Of a DNA stretch of 64,000 bases, positions 37,930 through 60,814 are shown in pieces. Below the pieces are notes generated by a model. It was not told the DNA's origin. It did not search any database and saw only the letters and a list, made by a program, of their open reading frames with translations. Where the stretch lies: NCBI RefSeq assembly GCF_024362485.1, contig NZ_CP101456.1:682001-746000 (forward strand). Reading direction: 5' to 3'. The stretch's first letter is position 1. The number at the start of each line of letters is the position of its first letter. Origin of the DNA: Natronobeatus ordinarius (GTDB taxonomy: Archaea; Halobacteriota; Halobacteria; Halobacteriales; Natrialbaceae). The position numbers were made by a program, and so were the translations under genes.

Positions 37930-38175
37930 ACGAATTCGTAGTCAGAGGCGGTATTTCAATGATGTGCAATAGATCTCTCCGGCAAGTTTTCCGTATTTAT
38001 TAATGGCCGTTTCGGTCGCCTATTTTAGAGGCGAACGAGCCGGGAGCGGGGAAATCACCAGCGGGTGGTCGCCTCGAGGGCGTAACGAGGTATGTAACCG
38101 AATGGACAATCGACGCCGACGACCGAGAGCTCGAGGGGCAGTTCTCGCAATATTTGGATCCCGTCCCAAACTCGT

Positions 38176-38683
38176 CTAGAGTTCGCCTCTGGTAGCGTCA
38201 ACTGACACCTCCAGTGTGATGGCTGTTTTGGCTGACCGCTCGAGCAGTTCGTCGGCGAACGCCGCGAATTGTTCGGGATCGGCATACTGCACCAGAGTCA
38301 ACCAGAGGAGCGACTTTAATCCTGCTTCTGACCACCGAACCCACTGATTCTTACATCGCTTCGAAACTTCACCCATGGCTTGTTCGACAACATTGAACGT
38401 CCACGGAACCTGCTGTTGTTCAAGCGCGAGTTCTGCGAACGTCACGGTTGCTTTCGCCCATTCCTGGAGGTACGCCGCAGCTTTTAGCGAGTCTTGACGG
38501 CCTAATCGTCAGACTTCTTTCCGGAGGTTCTCGAGCGTCTGGTCGATCCGCTCGCGGGTCGCCAAACGCTCATTCTTCGGCGCACGGAGTGCGACCGAGT
38601 TCTTCAGATGAAACAGATCGTTCGTGACTCCGGAGACGATTGCTTCCAGCTCAGCGAGCGCGAACTCATCGTATTTCTAGAGA
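38176..38683 (-). pseudogene. Truncated ISH6-like transposase with internal stop
   Basis: Reading on the minus strand from about 38683: KYDEFALAELEAIVSGV..., then LENLRKEV and an in-frame TGA at about 38509-38507. The frame continues unchanged, RLGRQDSLKAAAYLQEW..., to KNQWVRWSEAGLKSLLWL and ends ...SVDATRGEL at 38176. The VRWSEAGL and ATRGEL endings match, from memory, the C-terminus of haloarchaeal ISH6-type transposases. The N-terminal half is missing at the AT-rich junction near 38685. It is a dead relic marking the left side of the accessory island. The space 37930-38175 upstream of acnA shows only its promoter. Confidence 0.8.
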
Positions 38684-38739
38684 CTATACCTGAGAAGAGA
38701 TTTATTAGTACCCTCATATATCTAATTAATTCCATAATT

Positions 38740-38747
38740 TTTATATT
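38740..38747 (+). promoter_or_regulatory. TATA box of the zincin/Tat gene pair
   Basis: TTTATATT is centred about 29 bases before the ATG at 38772, consistent with leaderless transcription. It settles the start over an in-frame ATG at 38754. Confidence 0.55.
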
Positions 38748-38771
38748 GGTATATTGCACAGTATATCTTGC

Positions 38772-39494
38772 ATGTCTTTCACGACATTAGAAGAACGAGG
38801 TGATGCATGGCAACCAAGCAGACCATATCTTGTGTATTTATACCCGAATTCACAATCAGTAAATAGTTCGATAAATGATGAAATATTATATGGTGGCGAT
38901 CTGAGCGATAATGAAGGTATCTACGGACTATGTGAATCGATGTACTCGGACGGTGTTATCGATTTTTATCGTATCCAAAGATATAATGACACTCTTAATA
39001 TAAGCGATAATACACTTGATAACTTTTCCACTGCCTTCAAAAATTGGCTTGAAGTTAGTGATTATATAGACTGGAGAGGAACTCACTTAGCAGTTTCCAG
39101 TAATAACATTGGGGGGCGAGCACAGAGTCCAAGCAATCTCTCACATACAACCGGATTCGTTGACGCGAAGCGTGGTGTCATGGGAGTATATAGTAATGAA
39201 AACGGGACTGCTCAGGTAGCGGTCCACGAGGTGTTACATACTATTATTAACCGAGGTATTGATGAAATCGAGGACATGGTAGAAAACGATACTGACCACG
39301 ACCTCGGACACTTATATATGATTGGACATGAAGAAGGAGCAAGCAGTCCGTTACTTGGAACATACGGTTCCGAGCATTGGAGCACAGGAGACTGTAATTC
39401 TGATATAGCCTCAACAGAGGAAGCTTGGACAAAAATGAATAGTTGCGAGCACACCGGAGTTGAAGTTACTGCTGACCACGAGTACGATGACTAA
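38772..39494 (+). CDS. HExxH zinc metalloprotease-like protein, AT-rich accessory gene
   Basis: A 240-residue protein with a zincin motif HEVLH (152-156) in QVAVHEVLHTIINRG. Candidate third ligands are His176/His180 in DHDLGHLYMIGHEE, His186 or His202. It is not a metzincin because the G-x-x-H extension is absent. A possible disulfide or zinc pair lies in the C-terminus (GDC, NSCEHTG). No signal peptide is visible, so it either stays inside or leaves by another route. Base composition is clearly AT-rich compared with neighbours, indicating recent acquisition. Its stop overlaps the start of the next gene by 8 bases, so the two are translated together. No family recognised. Confidence 0.7.
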   Translation: MSFTTLEERGDAWQPSRPYLVYLYPNSQSVNSSINDEILYGGDLSDNEGIYGLCESMYSDGVIDFYRIQRYNDTLNISDNTLDNFSTAFKNWLEVSDYIDWRGTHLAVSSNNIGGRAQSPSNLSHTTGFVDAKRGVMGVYSNENGTAQVAVHEVLHTIINRGIDEIEDMVENDTDHDLGHLYMIGHEEGASSPLLGTYGSEHWSTGDCNSDIASTEEAWTKMNSCEHTGVEVTADHEYDD

Positions 39495-40188
39495 AACAAA
39501 GAAAACATACCAAGTAGATAGACGTGCCATTTTAAAGAAAACTGCTGTGCTGAGCGGGGCGGTCGTAGTGGGTTCCACCACCGCTGCAGCATCAGAAAGA
39601 AAAGCCGGCCTTATTGAGATTGGAACTCAATACTCTATTAACTCTTCAACTAAATTTCCACCTGAAACAATAGCCATATGTGATGTCAATAAATATCGAC
39701 TGCAAAACGGAATTGTAAAACTTTATACAGATGTAATTGGACAAGATGAAATTGATGTAATCAAATCCAACCAAACCGTAACATATAGTGGAGCCTTCCA
39801 GTCCCTAAGTGATCCAATTGAGTATGAACGACGAAATTACCTCAATATTAATCTAGCTAAAAATTTACGTCCAGATGTAGCGATTGAATTGACTGAGCCA
39901 CATCAGGAAGAGTCCATTATTGTCGAAAATATGAATGATGGTTCAATCATAGTCAAAACAGATGATTCCGAAGAACCAGTTAGAGCAGGAGAAGAGATGG
40001 TGCAGCAATTCTCCAGCCGTCCTGTGACAGCAATCACACATGAGGTTACTGGAGAACTAGTTGACACTGAATTAGATGTACCTACCCATAAACTTGCTCG
40101 TAAAACCACAGTTAGGAACGAAGAAATAGATGTTAGCCGAGAAGTGCGTGTCAGATACTATAGTGATTTGGTATTTAAAATGGAATAG
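39487..40188 (+). CDS. Tat-secreted partner of the zincin, function unknown
   Basis: 233 residues with a twin-arginine signal DRRAILKKTAVLSGAVVVG (Arg12-Arg13) ending near STTAAASE, without lipobox. The mature part is strand-rich and free of obvious domains: TQYSINSSTKFPPETIAICDVN, NGIVKLYTDVIG, then a late repeat of Val/Thr strands (THEVTGELVDTELDVP). It overlaps the zincin gene by ATGACTAA, which implies a functional pair, perhaps substrate, inhibitor or activator of the protease. AT-rich, like its partner, and bounded by a decayed transposase directly downstream. No homologue recognised. Confidence 0.75.
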   Translation: MTKTKKTYQVDRRAILKKTAVLSGAVVVGSTTAAASERKAGLIEIGTQYSINSSTKFPPETIAICDVNKYRLQNGIVKLYTDVIGQDEIDVIKSNQTVTYSGAFQSLSDPIEYERRNYLNINLAKNLRPDVAIELTEPHQEESIIVENMNDGSIIVKTDDSEEPVRAGEEMVQQFSSRPVTAITHEVTGELVDTELDVPTHKLARKTTVRNEEIDVSREVRVRYYSDLVFKME

Positions 40189-40204: not shown

Positions 40205-40618
40205 TGGGTAGCCGTGGTGAATCACCATACAGCGGTTGATTACACTGTCTGATGGCACCCTTGATCTTGTAGACGATACACATCAGGACAATTTCACTGA
40301 ACTCTCGATACCAGAAGCGCGCACGTACGGCGTCGCCGAGCGTGCGCTTGGTCACCGAGAAGACGGTTTCAGACGGGGTTCTTTGGTCGTAGAGAGCCTC
40401 ATCGATCCGCGCGTTGAGTGGTCTGCGTCACTTCTGAATCTTGGCTACGTCGGTACGCTATTCGACTCCCGCGACTCGAGTGACTGCTTCCGAAACGAGT
40501 ATTCAAAACTAACCTCGATCACCCATGCGCGTGATCGATAGGCCGGAACTCACGATGCTTGATCAGGAGTCTCACGCTTTTTCCCTCAGCTTGTCGCGTA
40601 ATCGTTGCCAGTCGTAGC
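40205..40618 (-). pseudogene. Decayed IS5/ISH1-like transposase, copy 1
   Basis: The minus strand encodes fragments of the C-terminal half of an IS5-group transposase: GYDWQRLRDKLRE, then a frame shift and stops, then (after the 107-bp insert at 40416-40522) NARIDEALYDQRT and TVFSVTKRTLGDAVRARFWYREF-type sequence. The DNA aligns closely with copy 2 (41713-42508), including the bases beyond the stop. The natural TGA is changed to TGT. The N-terminal half is absent: the match ends near 40618. It is an inactive relic interrupted by the small element shared with copy 2. Confidence 0.85.
40416..40522. repeat. 107-bp mobile element core, copy 1
   Basis: A 107-bp segment (starts GAGTGGTCTGCG, ends CCTCGATCAC) interrupts transposase relic 1 between GCGCGTT and CCATGCGCGTGATCG. 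Compared with relic 2, which has GCGCATTGTGCGCGTGATCG here, the DNA is a clean insertion. The same 107 bp with one mismatch (40481 T versus C) recurs at 42276-42382 inside relic 2 at a different site. Ends are weakly inverted (GAGTGGTC/GATCACCC). Confidence 0.85.
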
Positions 40619-41040
40619 CTCAGTTGATCACATCAGAGAGCTCACAACCCCGTTCCAGTAGCCGCTGAATCGTTGTCTTCGAGATCTGGATAGCCTTCGA
40701 ACGCATTGAGATGGTGAGTTCTGTTCTCGGCAGCCGAGCTTTGTTGTTGGCTGGTCGTTGCTGGCGGCAGATCGCTGCCGACTCGACGGCGTTCCATTCA
40801 CGACCGGTGTCCCAATTCAGGGACAGCTACCGGAAGAACCGGTCGTTGAGCGGTTGGTTCGCTGGCACAGCTCTGCGGACGCCAAGTGCTGCCCAAGCTG
40901 CGCGGGGCACCATCTCGCAGAACTCTGTGAACGGCCACCTCCAGAGGCGGTGCCCCCTCCCTCGACGGGGCGCCGCCAGTTGCATACATTCTCCAAGCAG
41001 ACACTTTCACTCAAACCCGATGTGATCGACTGATTCTATG
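40619..41040. other. GC-rich fragment of unknown origin in the island
   Basis: Between IS relic 1 and the lipoprotein gene the DNA becomes GC-rich again. A plus-strand frame from about 40758 to 41033 contains CCPSCAGHH and could be the end of a zinc-binding protein, but it has no convincing start, and the opposite strand is equally open. A short minus-strand stretch near 40620-40705 reads like a helix-turn-helix piece. I regard the interval as composite debris of mobile elements and annotate no gene. Confidence 0.4.
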
Positions 41041-41056
41041 TCACCTCTACTTCTTT

Positions 41057-41620
41057 TCAATCAATTATATATTCTTCATGATTTTCGTATGTCAACTCTA
41101 TTTTTTCCCCAGCACCAATTTCATCACAATCAGTATGGAGAATATAGAGTTCACCTTCGGCTATTTCTACCCCGAGAGCGGTTCCGGTGCCGGCTCCAGG
41201 ACCACGGGCACAAGTCAAAACTGTCCAATCATATTCCTCAACCATTCCGTCAAATTTAGCGGTAATTCTGTATTCACTTCCGACATCTGCTATGCTTGGA
41301 ATTTCAAGCCCTGTCTTTGAGGGAACTTCGTACTTGTTTTCAATAAGTTCTTCTCCACTAGATTTCTGTTCAACAAACACTTCTACAACTATCTCATCAT
41401 CTGTGGTGTTCTCAATGAATATCGGATCTTGTCTTGATTCATCATAGGTGTCTTCTTCGCCATTCTGTGGCTCAGTATCTATATCATCATTTTCATCTTC
41501 TCCACTGGTGTCATTATCGTTGTGCATATCATCTTCGGTGCTTTGATTTCTGTCAAGACAGCCAATCATGGGCGTGAAGAGCGCTATCCCTGTCCCAGTA
41601 ATAACTTTTCGTCGGTTCAT
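41057..41620 (-). CDS. Tat-exported lipoprotein, AT-rich accessory gene
   Basis: A 187-residue protein with a twin-arginine signal (NRRKVITGTG) and lipobox FTPMIGC, so Cys21 would be lipidated and the protein anchored outside. A very acidic linker (DDMHNDNDTSGEDENDD) leads to an Ig-like beta domain at ~65-187: DPIFIENTTDDEIVVEVFVEQ, EYRITAKFDGMVEEYDWTV, then ELYILHTDCDEIGAGEKIELTY. Two cysteines (TCARG and TDCDE) may form a disulfide. The fold suggests a small surface adaptor or inhibitor; no family recognised. AT-rich. Its own TATA box (41641-41649) makes it independent of the zincin pair. Confidence 0.8.
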   Translation of the reverse strand: MNRRKVITGTGIALFTPMIGCLDRNQSTEDDMHNDNDTSGEDENDDIDTEPQNGEEDTYDESRQDPIFIENTTDDEIVVEVFVEQKSSGEELIENKYEVPSKTGLEIPSIADVGSEYRITAKFDGMVEEYDWTVLTCARGPGAGTGTALGVEIAEGELYILHTDCDEIGAGEKIELTYENHEEYIID

Positions 41621-41649: not shown

Positions 41650-41712
41650 CTTTTCATCTGGCAAAATAGACTCTTCATTCGGCTGTGGTGAATCGCCATA
41701 CAGTGGTTGATT

Positions 41713-42508
41713 TCACTGTGTGACGGCACGCTTGATGTTGTAGACGACACACATCAGGACGATTTCACGGAACTCACGATACCAGCTTCGCGCACGCACG
41801 GCATCGCCGAGCGTGAGCTTGATTACCGAGAAGACGGTTTCAGACAGCGCTCGCTGGCCGTAGAGAGTCTCATCGATCCGCGCATTGTGCGCGTGATCGA
41901 TGGGGCGAAACTCACGATGCTTGATCAACGGTCTCACGCCTTCTTCCCTCAATTTGTCGCGTAATCGTTGCCAGTCGTAGCCTTTGTCTGCGACGAGGCT
42001 GTGCAACTCGCCCGCGTTGCGGCGGGCGAGTTGCCAGCCGATCTGCGTGTCGTGGCGTTTCCTCGTCGTGCAGTGAACGTCGAGGACAGCCTGTGAGGCT
42101 GTATCGACGAGAGCGGTGGTTTTGAGCGTCTGGACGCGGTAATTCGTCCGACGGCAGTAGTGTTTGCTTGCGTTTTCGCGGTCGAAAAATGTCGCGTCCA
42201 TCGCCGCATGACCGGATGGGTCGTGCAGCTGCGTCCCAAAATCGCAGAGCGATTTTGTGGGCTGCACAAAAGCTGGAGTGGTCTGCGTCACTTCTGAATC
42301 TTGGCTACGTCGGTACGCTATTCGACTCCCGCGACTCGAGCGACTGCTTCCGAAACGAGTATTCAAAACTAACCTCGATCACTCGCGCTTTTGTGAACGC
42401 CGACAGGCGCAGCAGCACTCGCCAGACGGCCGTCTTGATCCTGTCAAACGCCTCTACTAGCGTGGAATGATGCGGGAGATCGGCCGCGTTGAGTCCTATC
42501 TTGGCCAA
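41713..42508 (-). pseudogene. IS5/ISH1-like transposase, copy 2, disrupted by a 164-bp insert
   Basis: The minus strand encodes most of an IS5-group transposase. The N-terminal part (MAKIGLNAADLPHHSTLVEAF, RVLLRLSA) ends at 42398 and resumes after an insertion as QLHDPSGHAAMDATFFDRENASKH. It then continues intact to LVADKGYDWQRL and ETVFSVIKLTLGDAVRARSW, ending VTQ-stop at 41713. DDE residues can be recognised in MDATFF, VADKG and ETVFS. The first ~60 residues expected for the family are missing at 42508. The insert (about 42234-42397) kills the gene. A long chimeric frame starting in the insert (42366) is not a real gene. Confidence 0.85.
42234..42397. mobile_element. 164-bp MITE-like insertion containing the 107-bp core, copy 2
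   Basis: Removing 42234-42397 restores the transposase reading LRLSA-QLHDPSG, so this is a true insertion; boundaries are uncertain by 2-3 bp because CG is shared. It begins with a hairpin (AAAATCGC-AGA-GCGATTTT, 42238-42256), then a CACAAAAGC that is inverted at the other end as GCTTTTGTG (about 42387-42395). The 107-bp core (42276-42382) lies between these two and matches copy 1 with one mismatch. It has no coding capacity. Confidence 0.75.
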
Positions 42509-42544: not shown

Positions 42545-43000
42545 TCAGTCCGACGCCGCGGAGTCGACGCCCTCGAGGCGGTCGAACGCCTCCGCCGTGA
42601 GCTCGCCGGTCTCCTCGAGGATCTCGGCCCACGCCTCGTTGTCGGGGGCGATGCCGAGCAGGTGGGCGATCTTCATGATCGAGAGGTGGTAGACGCGCTG
42701 GCGGCCCGGTTTCTCCTCCCAGACGATCACGTTACAGGGGAAGAGGCCGCCGATGCGCAGCGTCTCCTCGAGCGCGCGGTTCGCGATCGCCGGGTTGCAG
42801 GCGCCGAGGACGTAGTAGGGGTCGCGGTCGGCGTCGACCTTCTCGTTGAGCAACTCCGAGGGGGAGAACTCGACGGGGATGCCGAAGCCGACGTCGGTAC
42901 ACACCCCGCGGACGTGCTCGATCGCCTCCTCGTGGTCCATCTCGAGGATCGCTTCTTTCTCGCCGTACTCCTCGGGGTCGAGTTCGCTCGGATCGATCAT
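42545..43000 (-). CDS. DUF302 family protein
   Basis: 151 residues. The DUF302 core lies at ~20-105 (EEAIEHVRGVCTDVGFGIPVEFSPSELLNEKV; YYVLGACNPAIANRALE; IGGLFPCNVIVWEEKPG), with the conserved GACNP and LPCNV-like motifs. These small proteins occur near respiratory and thiol-related genes, but their function is unproven. The ATG at 43000 (MIDPSELDPEEYG) is preferred over the codon at 43039. The C-terminus adds a haloarchaeal helical tail (NEAWAEILEETGELTAEAF). It is the first ordinary gene to the right of the island. Confidence 0.9.
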   Translation of the reverse strand: MIDPSELDPEEYGEKEAILEMDHEEAIEHVRGVCTDVGFGIPVEFSPSELLNEKVDADRDPYYVLGACNPAIANRALEETLRIGGLFPCNVIVWEEKPGRQRVYHLSIMKIAHLLGIAPDNEAWAEILEETGELTAEAFDRLEGVDSAASD

Positions 43001-43083
43001 CCCTTGTTGTTCCTCGCCCAGGGCAAAAACTGCTCTCACTCATCGTTCGTTCGCGGCGACGCGCCGACCGCCTGACGGGTGGC

Positions 43084-58780: not shown

Positions 58781-60814
58781 ATGAGTTTCAATAAAAAAGT
58801 AAATTCAGAAGTTCGTGATGCCGCAATTAGAAGTCTATCCGTCACTTCTTCACTGGCCCGACGCCCTCGATCATCGAACGGGTCGGGAATGGCTCTCGCT
58901 CTCTCTACGATACTGATCGTTTCGCTCGTCGCCATGGTGCCGCTCGCCGCTGGCGACCCGGGTTCGGTCGGGAACCTGGCTCTGGAGGACCGCGACGCCT
59001 CCGATGCCAGCCTCGAAGAACAGCACAGGGCGGCCGTGATCGATCCGCAACTCGAGAAACTGGCGTCGACGGAGGACGAACTCACTGTCGTTCTCCGGTT
59101 GACTGAACTGCGCGACGTCGACGAGCCGCGGCTACAGGCGGCCACCACACGGTCTGACCTGGACGTCCGTGACGAACTCAAGTCCCACGCGGCAACGACC
59201 CAGTCGCCGGTCGTCGCCACTCTCGAGCGCCGACCGGGCGTCGAGGTCCGAACCGACTTCTGGATCACGAACGCCCTCGTGGTGACCGTCGACACGACCG
59301 AAACCGACCTCGAGTCACTCGCGGCGCTCCCACACGTCGAACGAATCCACGAGAACTACGAAGTCGAGGCCGTCTCGACGGCAGCCAGCTCACCCGCCGT
59401 CGATCAGGGCGCGCTCGAGACCGGTTCCCTCCAGTCAACGGTCGCCGAGACGGCCGAAAGCGACTACACGTACGGGCTCGAGCAGATCAACGCCCCCGAC
59501 GTCTGGGACGAGTTCGACAACCGTGGCGAGGGTGCGACGGTCGCAGTGCTCGATACCGGCGTCGACGTCGATAGTCACCCAGACCTCGAGTTGATCGAGG
59601 ACGGCTGGGCCGAGTTCGACGAAGGCGGCAACCTGGTAGATAGCGAACCGTACGATCCCGAAGGGCATGGCACGCACGTGACCGGGACCGTTGGCGGGGA
59701 CCAGACCGACGCGAACGTTCACTACGGCGTCGCTCCCGACGTCGGATTGGCCCACAGTAAAGTCCTCGATGAGAATGGAGAGGGTTCATTCCCCGCGATC
59801 CTGGCTGGTATGCAGTGGGCGACCGACCACGAGGCCGACGTCGACGTCCTCACGATGAGTCTGGGTGCCGACGACTACATCGACGAGTTCATCGACCCGG
59901 TCGAGAACGCGAGAGACGCCGGCATCGTCGTCGTCGCAGCCGCTGGGAACGAAGGTCAGGGGACTTCCAGCTCTCCGGCAAACGTCTACGACGCGTTCGC
60001 AGTCGGTGGATCGGATAGCAACGAGAATCTCTACGCTAGCTCGAGTGGCGAAGTAATCACAACTGCAGACGTGTGGGACAACCCGCCGACACACTGGCCT
60101 TCTGAGTATACCGTTCCCAACGTTGCGGCACCGGGTGTCAACGTCTTGAGTGCAGTCCCCGATGACGGACACGGGTATAAAAGCGGTACGTCGATGGCAA
60201 CCCCTCACGTCGCTGGAGCCGCCGCGCTGTTGGTAACCGAGGATCCTGACCTCTCGGTGTCGGAGATCGAGCAACTCCTCGAGGAGACGGCCTCTCACCC
60301 CGACGGCGGTGATCAGGATTCCGAATTCGGCCACGGCATCATCGATGCACACGCAGCCGTGAGTGCCGCGGCAGGAATCGACGCCTCACTCGAGGTGAGT
60401 GACCTCGAGGCGCCGGCAACCGTCGGAGACGGCGAGGAACTCACCGTCTCGGCGACGGTGACGAACGCGGGAGAGTCCACAGCGACCCGCGACGTCGAGG
60501 TGCGTCTCGACGACGCCCTCTTGCACAGCGAGTCCGTGACCCTCGAGGCCGATTCGGACACCGACGTTGCGTTCGAGAACGTACTGATCGACGTCGGACC
60601 TGGGGACTACCAGCTCGGCGTTCACGTCGAGGATGGCGGTGAAGCCACCACGGAGCTCACGGTCGAGGCGACCGCCGCTACCTACACCGACGAGGACGGC
60701 ACCGTCCAGACTGGCGGTCTTCGCGATGCGATCGATGACTGGCGGTCCGGGATCATCGACACCGGCCTCTTGCGCGACGTCATCGATTACTGGCGATCTG
60801 GAGCCGAAGTATAA
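58781..60814 (+). CDS. Subtilisin-like (S8) serine protease, halolysin-type
   Basis: 677 residues. The N-terminal segment has RR (28-29) and a hydrophobic helix MALALSTILIVSLVAMVPLAAG (37-58). A pro-peptide covers ~85-195 (inhibitor I9-like). The S8 domain is at ~228-530 with triad Asp258 (AVLDTG), His296 (EGHGTHV) and Ser471 (GTSMATPH), plus oxyanion Asn390 (AAGNEG). A CARDB/Ig-like domain follows at ~550-635. A C-terminal pair of RDAIDDWRSG / RDVIDYWRSG repeats resembles the DVIDxWRSG ends of other haloarchaeal exoproteins. It is extracellular and probably processes surface or dietary proteins. The ATG at 58781 is the only close start. Confidence 0.9.
   Translation: MSFNKKVNSEVRDAAIRSLSVTSSLARRPRSSNGSGMALALSTILIVSLVAMVPLAAGDPGSVGNLALEDRDASDASLEEQHRAAVIDPQLEKLASTEDELTVVLRLTELRDVDEPRLQAATTRSDLDVRDELKSHAATTQSPVVATLERRPGVEVRTDFWITNALVVTVDTTETDLESLAALPHVERIHENYEVEAVSTAASSPAVDQGALETGSLQSTVAETAESDYTYGLEQINAPDVWDEFDNRGEGATVAVLDTGVDVDSHPDLELIEDGWAEFDEGGNLVDSEPYDPEGHGTHVTGTVGGDQTDANVHYGVAPDVGLAHSKVLDENGEGSFPAILAGMQWATDHEADVDVLTMSLGADDYIDEFIDPVENARDAGIVVVAAAGNEGQGTSSSPANVYDAFAVGGSDSNENLYASSSGEVITTADVWDNPPTHWPSEYTVPNVAAPGVNVLSAVPDDGHGYKSGTSMATPHVAGAAALLVTEDPDLSVSEIEQLLEETASHPDGGDQDSEFGHGIIDAHAAVSAAAGIDASLEVSDLEAPATVGDGEELTVSATVTNAGESTATRDVEVRLDDALLHSESVTLEADSDTDVAFENVLIDVGPGDYQLGVHVEDGGEATTELTVEATAATYTDEDGTVQTGGLRDAIDDWRSGIIDTGLLRDVIDYWRSGAEV

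Follow-up and report, generated by a model that had tools for sequence, protein, structure and literature searches.

A signal-less metzincin-like zincin encoded next to a Tat-signal protein: a recurrent haloarchaeal gene pair and a candidate two-protein secreted protease

The window analyzed here, a stretch of 64,000 nucleotides from the 4.2-Mb genome of Natronobeatus ordinarius (contig NZ_CP101456.1, positions 682,001 to 746,000), contains a pair of overlapping genes, the first of which codes for a HExxH protein (zincin) of 240 residues and the second for a protein of 233 residues with a Tat-type N terminus that includes the sequence DRRAILK (Table 1). A sequence-only reading of this region had described the 8-bp overlap and the lack of a signal peptide in the zincin, and both are evident from the open reading frames and the sequence; no signal peptide appears even when the in-frame upstream sequence is included. 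The contrast in base composition is as sharp as that reading stated, with a GC fraction of 0.418 for the zincin gene and 0.392 for the partner gene against 0.650 for the window. A TATA-like stretch ∼28 nt upstream of the zincin start codon is compatible with a putative leaderless promoter. The zincin, found in a single copy in its own genome, has no Pfam or NCBIfam family match; the partner has no curated Pfam or NCBIfam match, only one to the Tat-signal model (12.4 bits, with a cut-off of 16.7), in agreement with the earlier reading, which recognized no known family in either protein.

Table 1. Features of the zincin-partner locus and its surroundings (positions within the window)
Feature	Position	Strand	Basis
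Decayed ISH6-family transposase fragments	38055..38445	-	tblastn of 38176-38445 against plasmid records
TATA-like element, leaderless promoter candidate	38741..38747	+	read from sequence
Signal-less metzincin-like zincin, 240 aa, proposed catalytic subunit	38772..39494	+	ORF, ATG 38772, stop 39494
HEVLH zinc-binding helix motif, residues 152-156 (H152, E153, H156)	39225..39239	+	alignments A1 and A4
H176 (chain numbering), proposed third zinc ligand	39297..39299	+	invariant in A1 and A4; ligand role inferred
Zincin/partner ORF overlap, 8 bp	39487..39494	+	sequence
Partner with Tat signal, 233 aa, proposed to act as export carrier and as chaperone or inhibitor	39487..40188	+	ORF, leave-one-out profile
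Partner twin-arginine codons R12-R13	39520..39525	+	sequence; sole invariant columns of partner alignment A2
Decayed copy of IS5-type element	40211..40620	-	direct repeats of parts of 41682-42382
Ig-like Tat lipoprotein of 187 aa, candidate for immunity or anchoring	41057..41620	-	profile built from lipoproteins near other cassettes
IS5-family element with DDE_Tnp_1 transposase ORF 41713-42366	41682..42382	-	repeats, domain match, homology

The location between decayed transposases, also pointed out previously, is borne out by ISH6 fragments on the left and two IS5-type copies on the right of the pair. The left flank contains an 89-residue fragment with 83 to 90% identity to plasmid-borne copies in tblastn; among the matches listed, two of the five are annotated as ISH6 or ISH6-like transposases. 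A DUF302 protein is encoded to the right of the island (42548-43039, minus strand). No matches were obtained with the window zincin in genome_contigs or in phages, with the window partner, the pair alignment A6, or the L139 zincin in viral contigs, or with the partners of the window and of L056 in plasmids (L numbers denote individual loci). A relative of the L124 zincin is encoded on one stretch of the viral contigs, for which no locus was returned.

Relatives of the window zincin were found in 18 of the 125 genomes of its family, its own included, by a single-sequence search and in 88 of 391 genomes of the class by a profile built from 19 sequences. They come in two forms. Members of the first are mostly ∼285 to 390 residues long, carry the catalytic domain behind a Tat signal of their own, and have genome-like GC; the 29 named relatives of this form are titled Natrialbaceae, Natrinema, Natronorubrum, and similar. 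These proteins are conserved and mostly lack adjacent Tat genes. The signal-less form is very diverse and comprises either ∼215 to 280 residues or, together with PKD and PPC-like domains, ∼400 residues. Such domains are typical of secreted peptidases, so that the PKD domains and sub-threshold PPC matches of the L003 and L090 zincins support export. One protein that is nested among the signal-less zincins in the tree (L057) bears a Tat signal itself, and no Tat gene adjoins it. Signal-less zincins are patchy in their distribution, sometimes plasmid borne or located between transposases, and often decayed; their loci differ from their flanks in GC by -0.085 on average (n=19), compared to +0.041 for the own-signal loci (n=18). 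A plasmid of Halobacterium salinarum encodes a lipoprotein, a zincin, and a partner in a row, and Halorussus plasmids carry similar pairs flanked by transposases. Near-identical cassettes close to transposases were seen on plasmids of Halorussus limi (L174), Halorussus aquaticus (L176), and Halosimplex aquaticum (L175), the last of which has a transposase immediately upstream of the zincin and no partner that could be found.

The Glu and the second His of the zincin motif are invariant in alignments A1 and A4, as is the position of H176, the later His (19 rows in A4). The first His is replaced by Gln (QExxH) in 8 of the 19 rows of A4, with the window zincin retaining the canonical HEVLH. Two zincin-like neighbors in G379 (L127 and L129) have Asn in place of the catalytic Glu (HNAIH) and are candidate pseudo-enzymes. 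Given these replacements of the first ligand and of the catalytic residue, some members may lack activity or rely on a different chemistry. Two cysteines are conserved in 19 of 19 and 18 of 18 rows, which fits an extracellular protein. When the members of alignments A1, A3, and A4 were each scanned against Pfam, nothing scored above the cut-off, and profiles of the same alignments gave only chance-level matches to PDB sequences.

Structure prediction, which the sequence-only reading had proposed, was uninformative for the window zincin itself, whose model is poor (pLDDT 44.5) and was given no weight, and succeeded for an own-signal relative (L144), to which the window zincin is 21% identical. 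The L144 model, built from 28 rows, reached a pLDDT of 84.4 and a pTM of 0.88. Its top rows in Foldseek were ADAM10 and TACE, with fragilysin entries lower; in VIA-align, archaemetzincin 2x7m (Z 13.1 with an rmsd of 2.7 over 161 aligned positions) and TACE (Z 12.8 with an rmsd of 3.7 over 197) were tied for first place. This relative is thus predicted to fold like the metzincins, a likeness to archaemetzincin and the adamalysin/ADAM/reprolysin (M12) proteins that extends to a match of the partner-linked L134 zincin to Pfam Reprolysin_5 (27.4 bits, with a cut-off of 27). The hallmarks of the metzincin clan are the HExxHxxGxxH/D motif and the Met-turn methionine. The window zincin lacks both: its HEVLH is followed by H176 twenty residues past H156, so that 19 residues separate the second ligand from the proposed third one, and it has Leu at the position of the Met-turn Met (SPLL, compared to SPM or TPM in most relatives). 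Because of the absence of the compact ligand motif and of this Met residue, the window zincin is not assigned here to M12 or to the archaemetzincins. The pattern HExxHxxxxxH is present in the zincins of L134, L135, and L139. These three, together with L132 and L136, constitute a second zincin family in leave-one-out searches; the type II zincin profile did not pick up the neighbors in L131 and L141, which are counted by motif only.

The partners of the main family have no match in Pfam, NCBIfam, or PDB. Twelve of them, with the signal removed, recovered each other in leave-one-out searches with E-values from 4e-7 to 9e-31 (Z=4000), the best shuffled score in the control being 12.3 bits, and the window partner was recovered by a leave-one-out profile of mature parts with E=1.4e-18 (Z=4000). 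At E ≤ 0.01, the partner profile matches 29 of 391 genomes of the class, in 21 of 86 genera; of 294 genomes of the phylum, 4 had matches, all from the order of the window. For a reciprocal check, 20 stretches around weaker or new partner matches were read. A zincin was recognized by profile in 8 of them (L124, L125, L126, L127, L129, L130, L140, and L143), by a Pfam reprolysin match in 2 more (L134, above the cut-off, and L135, below it), and by motif only in L131, L136, L139, and L141; L132 and L133 contain a degenerate zincin relative, and L138 lies at a contig end. No zincin was found beside the partner-like genes of L128, L137, and L142. The genes in L137 (G069) and L142 (G065) are GC rich and have neither a Tat signal nor a zincin; their neighbors are alike in both, and they are perhaps domesticated partners.

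The pair is a previously unnamed two-gene family that recurs across haloarchaea. The sequence-only reading had named, as findings that would speak against it, absence of the pair from other genomes and clear homology to housekeeping proteins; the pair does recur, and no match to a known family was obtained for either protein. Type I zincins and members of the second zincin family are both encoded next to the main partner family, so that a single family of partners is shared by two zincin subfamilies. Distances between zincins correlate with those between their partners (r=0.56 over 23 pairs and r=0.43 when only the 17 type I pairs are used, both with p=0.0002), which may partly reflect shared ancestry. 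Other zincins are accompanied by quite different proteins. In L003, L054, L090, and L091, the gene that precedes the zincin codes for an Ig-like Tat protein, and the 167-residue partner of L003 has no BLASTP match to the window partner; a family of 325-residue Tat proteins precedes the zincins of L068 to L070; and a Tat-like PQQ propeller is encoded 8 bp upstream of the L075 zincin. Across these differing kinds of partners, the Tat signal is the constant, which provides the strongest argument that the neighbor supplies the means of export.

The relation between the zincin's own signal and an adjacent Tat gene was quantified by a script that looked for same-strand ORFs with Tat-like starts from -100 to +60 bp of the zincin. 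Such ORFs were found at 20 of the 29 signal-less loci obtained in the zincin searches, at 1 of 49 own-signal loci, and for 9 of 259 background genes (400 kb), the latter being simple ORF-based calls with slightly different length limits. By Fisher's test, 20/29 differs from 1/49 with p=9e-11 and from 9/259 with p=2e-17. The raw rows numbered 55 with their own signal (1 with a Tat neighbor) and 47 without it (31 with a Tat neighbor). The former were reduced to 49 by merging six repeated loci (L009/L085, L015/L025, L016/L026, L017/L030, L018/L024, and L019/L028) and the latter to 29 by dropping repeats (L010, L012, L027, L029, and L031) as well as loci that came from the partner search or from plasmids (L124 to L143 and L173 to L177). 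Among the negatives, L006 and L011 have Tat-like N termini of their own whose start codons were not found by the script, L064 is a fragment, L065 has a partner with stops downstream, L074 has a Tat-like partner upstream with no clear start, and the start of the PQQ protein upstream of L075 was not accepted. The long zincins of L004, L005, and L014, with neither their own signal nor a Tat neighbor, are real exceptions. Among the positives, the adjacent Tat gene of L071 and L077 codes only for a Tat lipoprotein. That the two genes are mere chance neighbors in an insertion-sequence island, as might be suspected for a pair that does sit between transposase remnants, is very improbable: homologous partners recur in several haloarchaeal families, and p is below 1e-9 against both the own-signal zincins and the background. 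Chance adjacency is contradicted by the recurrence of the partner profile, the reciprocal check, and the neighbor statistics alike.

From the recurrence of the pair, the homology of its main partners, the complementarity between own signals and adjacent Tat genes, and the metzincin fold modeled for the relative, all of them computed here, it appears fairly likely that the pair makes up a secreted two-protein, metzincin-like protease, in which the zincin is a Tat hitchhiker on a dedicated partner. The zincin, having no export signal of its own, would fold in the cytoplasm; the Tat-signal partner would bind the folded protein; and the complex would leave through the Tat translocase and act as a protease outside. 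The arrangement expected of a hitchhiker pair, one signal-less subunit and one with a Tat signal encoded by adjacent genes, is seen in the window and at the 20 loci counted above. Since divergence within the main partner family parallels that of the zincins, and since its genes adjoin two zincin subfamilies, the partner is probably also a chaperone or inhibitor of the zincin until it is outside. The earlier description of a protease paired with an exported partner holds up, although the partner makes more sense as an export carrier than as the immunity protein of an effector/immunity cassette. The best-known cases of Tat co-export are redox enzymes; haloarchaea depend on the Tat pathway to a large extent.

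A better candidate for immunity is the Ig-like lipoprotein, which is encoded in low-GC DNA (0.415) beyond the first IS5 remnant, on the strand opposite to the pair. A profile of ten Ig-like proteins of other cassettes (nine lipoproteins and the L054 partner), from which the window's protein was excluded, recovered positions 41060-41620 with E=8.5e-5 (Z=4000) and had one match (E=0.0057) in the 400-kb background. A weak match of the same profile (E=9e-4) falls in a 677-residue subtilisin-like secreted protease, halolysin-like by eye, that is encoded 18 kb from the pair (58781-60814, plus strand) and is a possible further exoprotease. In 42 cassette stretches, some of which contributed to the training set, lipoprotein matches were found in L062, L063, L068 to L070, L072, L075, L077, L135, L139, L141, and L173. 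In L072 and L075, both outside the training set, the lipoprotein is on the opposite strand, as in the window. The minus strand of L062 (G382) carries three tandem copies downstream of the zincin and partner, an arrangement that hints at an array of immunity genes. None of the lipoproteins matches a Pfam family above the cut-off, that of L022 gave no BLASTP alignment with that of the window, and leave-one-out recovery was weak (E of 0.003 for L135, 0.005 for L068, and 0.14 for L090); the link of the lipoprotein to the pair is weaker than that between zincin and partner.

These observations bear on what the pair is for. If the zincin were a toxic effector that leaves the cell by lysis or some other route, and the Tat protein its exported immunity factor, this would agree with the AT-rich decaying islands and plasmids, with the overlap of the genes, and with a partner that tracks the zincin in divergence. 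Such a division of roles is nevertheless improbable, as in relatives the zincin bears the Tat signal, so that export of the enzyme by Tat is the more common condition, unrelated partners have nothing but the Tat signal in common, and the separate recurring lipoprotein is better suited to immunity. The main rival of antagonism as such is a nutritional or housekeeping exoprotease, exported in the same way and without any role in conflict, whose propeptide has been split off into its own gene. Metzincins often need a propeptide, and the own-signal relatives, with their conservation, genome-like GC, and general lack of adjacent Tat genes, look like ordinary secreted enzymes. Such a role is possible, though rather doubtful given the patchy occurrence of the signal-less forms, their GC below that of the flanks, their occasional location on plasmids or between transposases, and their frequent decay, and given that a lipoprotein accompanies them, in three tandem copies in L062. 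An effector or bacteriocin-like role, which the sequence-only reading had suggested, is plausible in view of the same features, namely location in islands, biased GC, patchy distribution, carriage on plasmids, and common decay, with the lipoprotein instead of the partner as the immunity candidate. Tentatively, then, the hitchhiking zincin could be a fast-evolving weapon, carried and inhibited by its partner, that hits the surface of competitors, while Ig-like Tat lipoproteins, possibly in tandem, neutralize it on the producer; its use against other haloarchaea and self-protection by the lipoprotein are both speculative. Halocin C8 is a secreted haloarchaeal protein that acts in conflict.

A limited literature search found no description of the pair in open papers, and the nearest parallels come from other systems. 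In the E. coli complexes HybOC and PaoABC, Tat is described as exporting a folded complex with the signal on one subunit only, which resembles the signal-less subunit encoded beside a Tat-signal subunit here (PMC4273604). Those complexes are cofactor-bearing redox enzymes, whereas the archaeal pair consists of a metzincin-like protease and a partner from a new family, which would be exported together. The likeness to the Acinetobacter metallopeptidase CpaA, reported to require the product of the adjacent gene, CpaB, for its secretion, lies in a metallopeptidase with a dedicated adjacent gene (PMC4713064). The two differ in that CpaA uses type II secretion and CpaB is a membrane-bound chaperone, and no sequence relation was seen; the window partner has a Tat-type signal and not a plain N-terminal anchor. 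Rank 10 in the Foldseek search with the L144 model was 6o38_C, whose PDB title reads "chaperone-substrate complex" and which we take to be CpaA/CpaB. HlyR4 and HmHapP combine secreted haloarchaeal proteins with proteolysis in conflict; they involve a serine halolysin and a precursor from another strain, and the abstract describes no zincin pair (PMC12893001).

If the proposed mechanism is true, haloarchaea have a family of proteases that leave the cell as Tat hitchhikers, along with a new family of carriers in 29 of 391 genomes of the class, and recognition of this carrier family would name many so far unannotated genes together. The exchanges among a fused signal, a dedicated partner, and an unrelated Tat partner make the carrier idea open to a partner-exchange test. 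If the lipoprotein is indeed an immunity factor, the cassettes would represent a new kind of archaeal conflict system.
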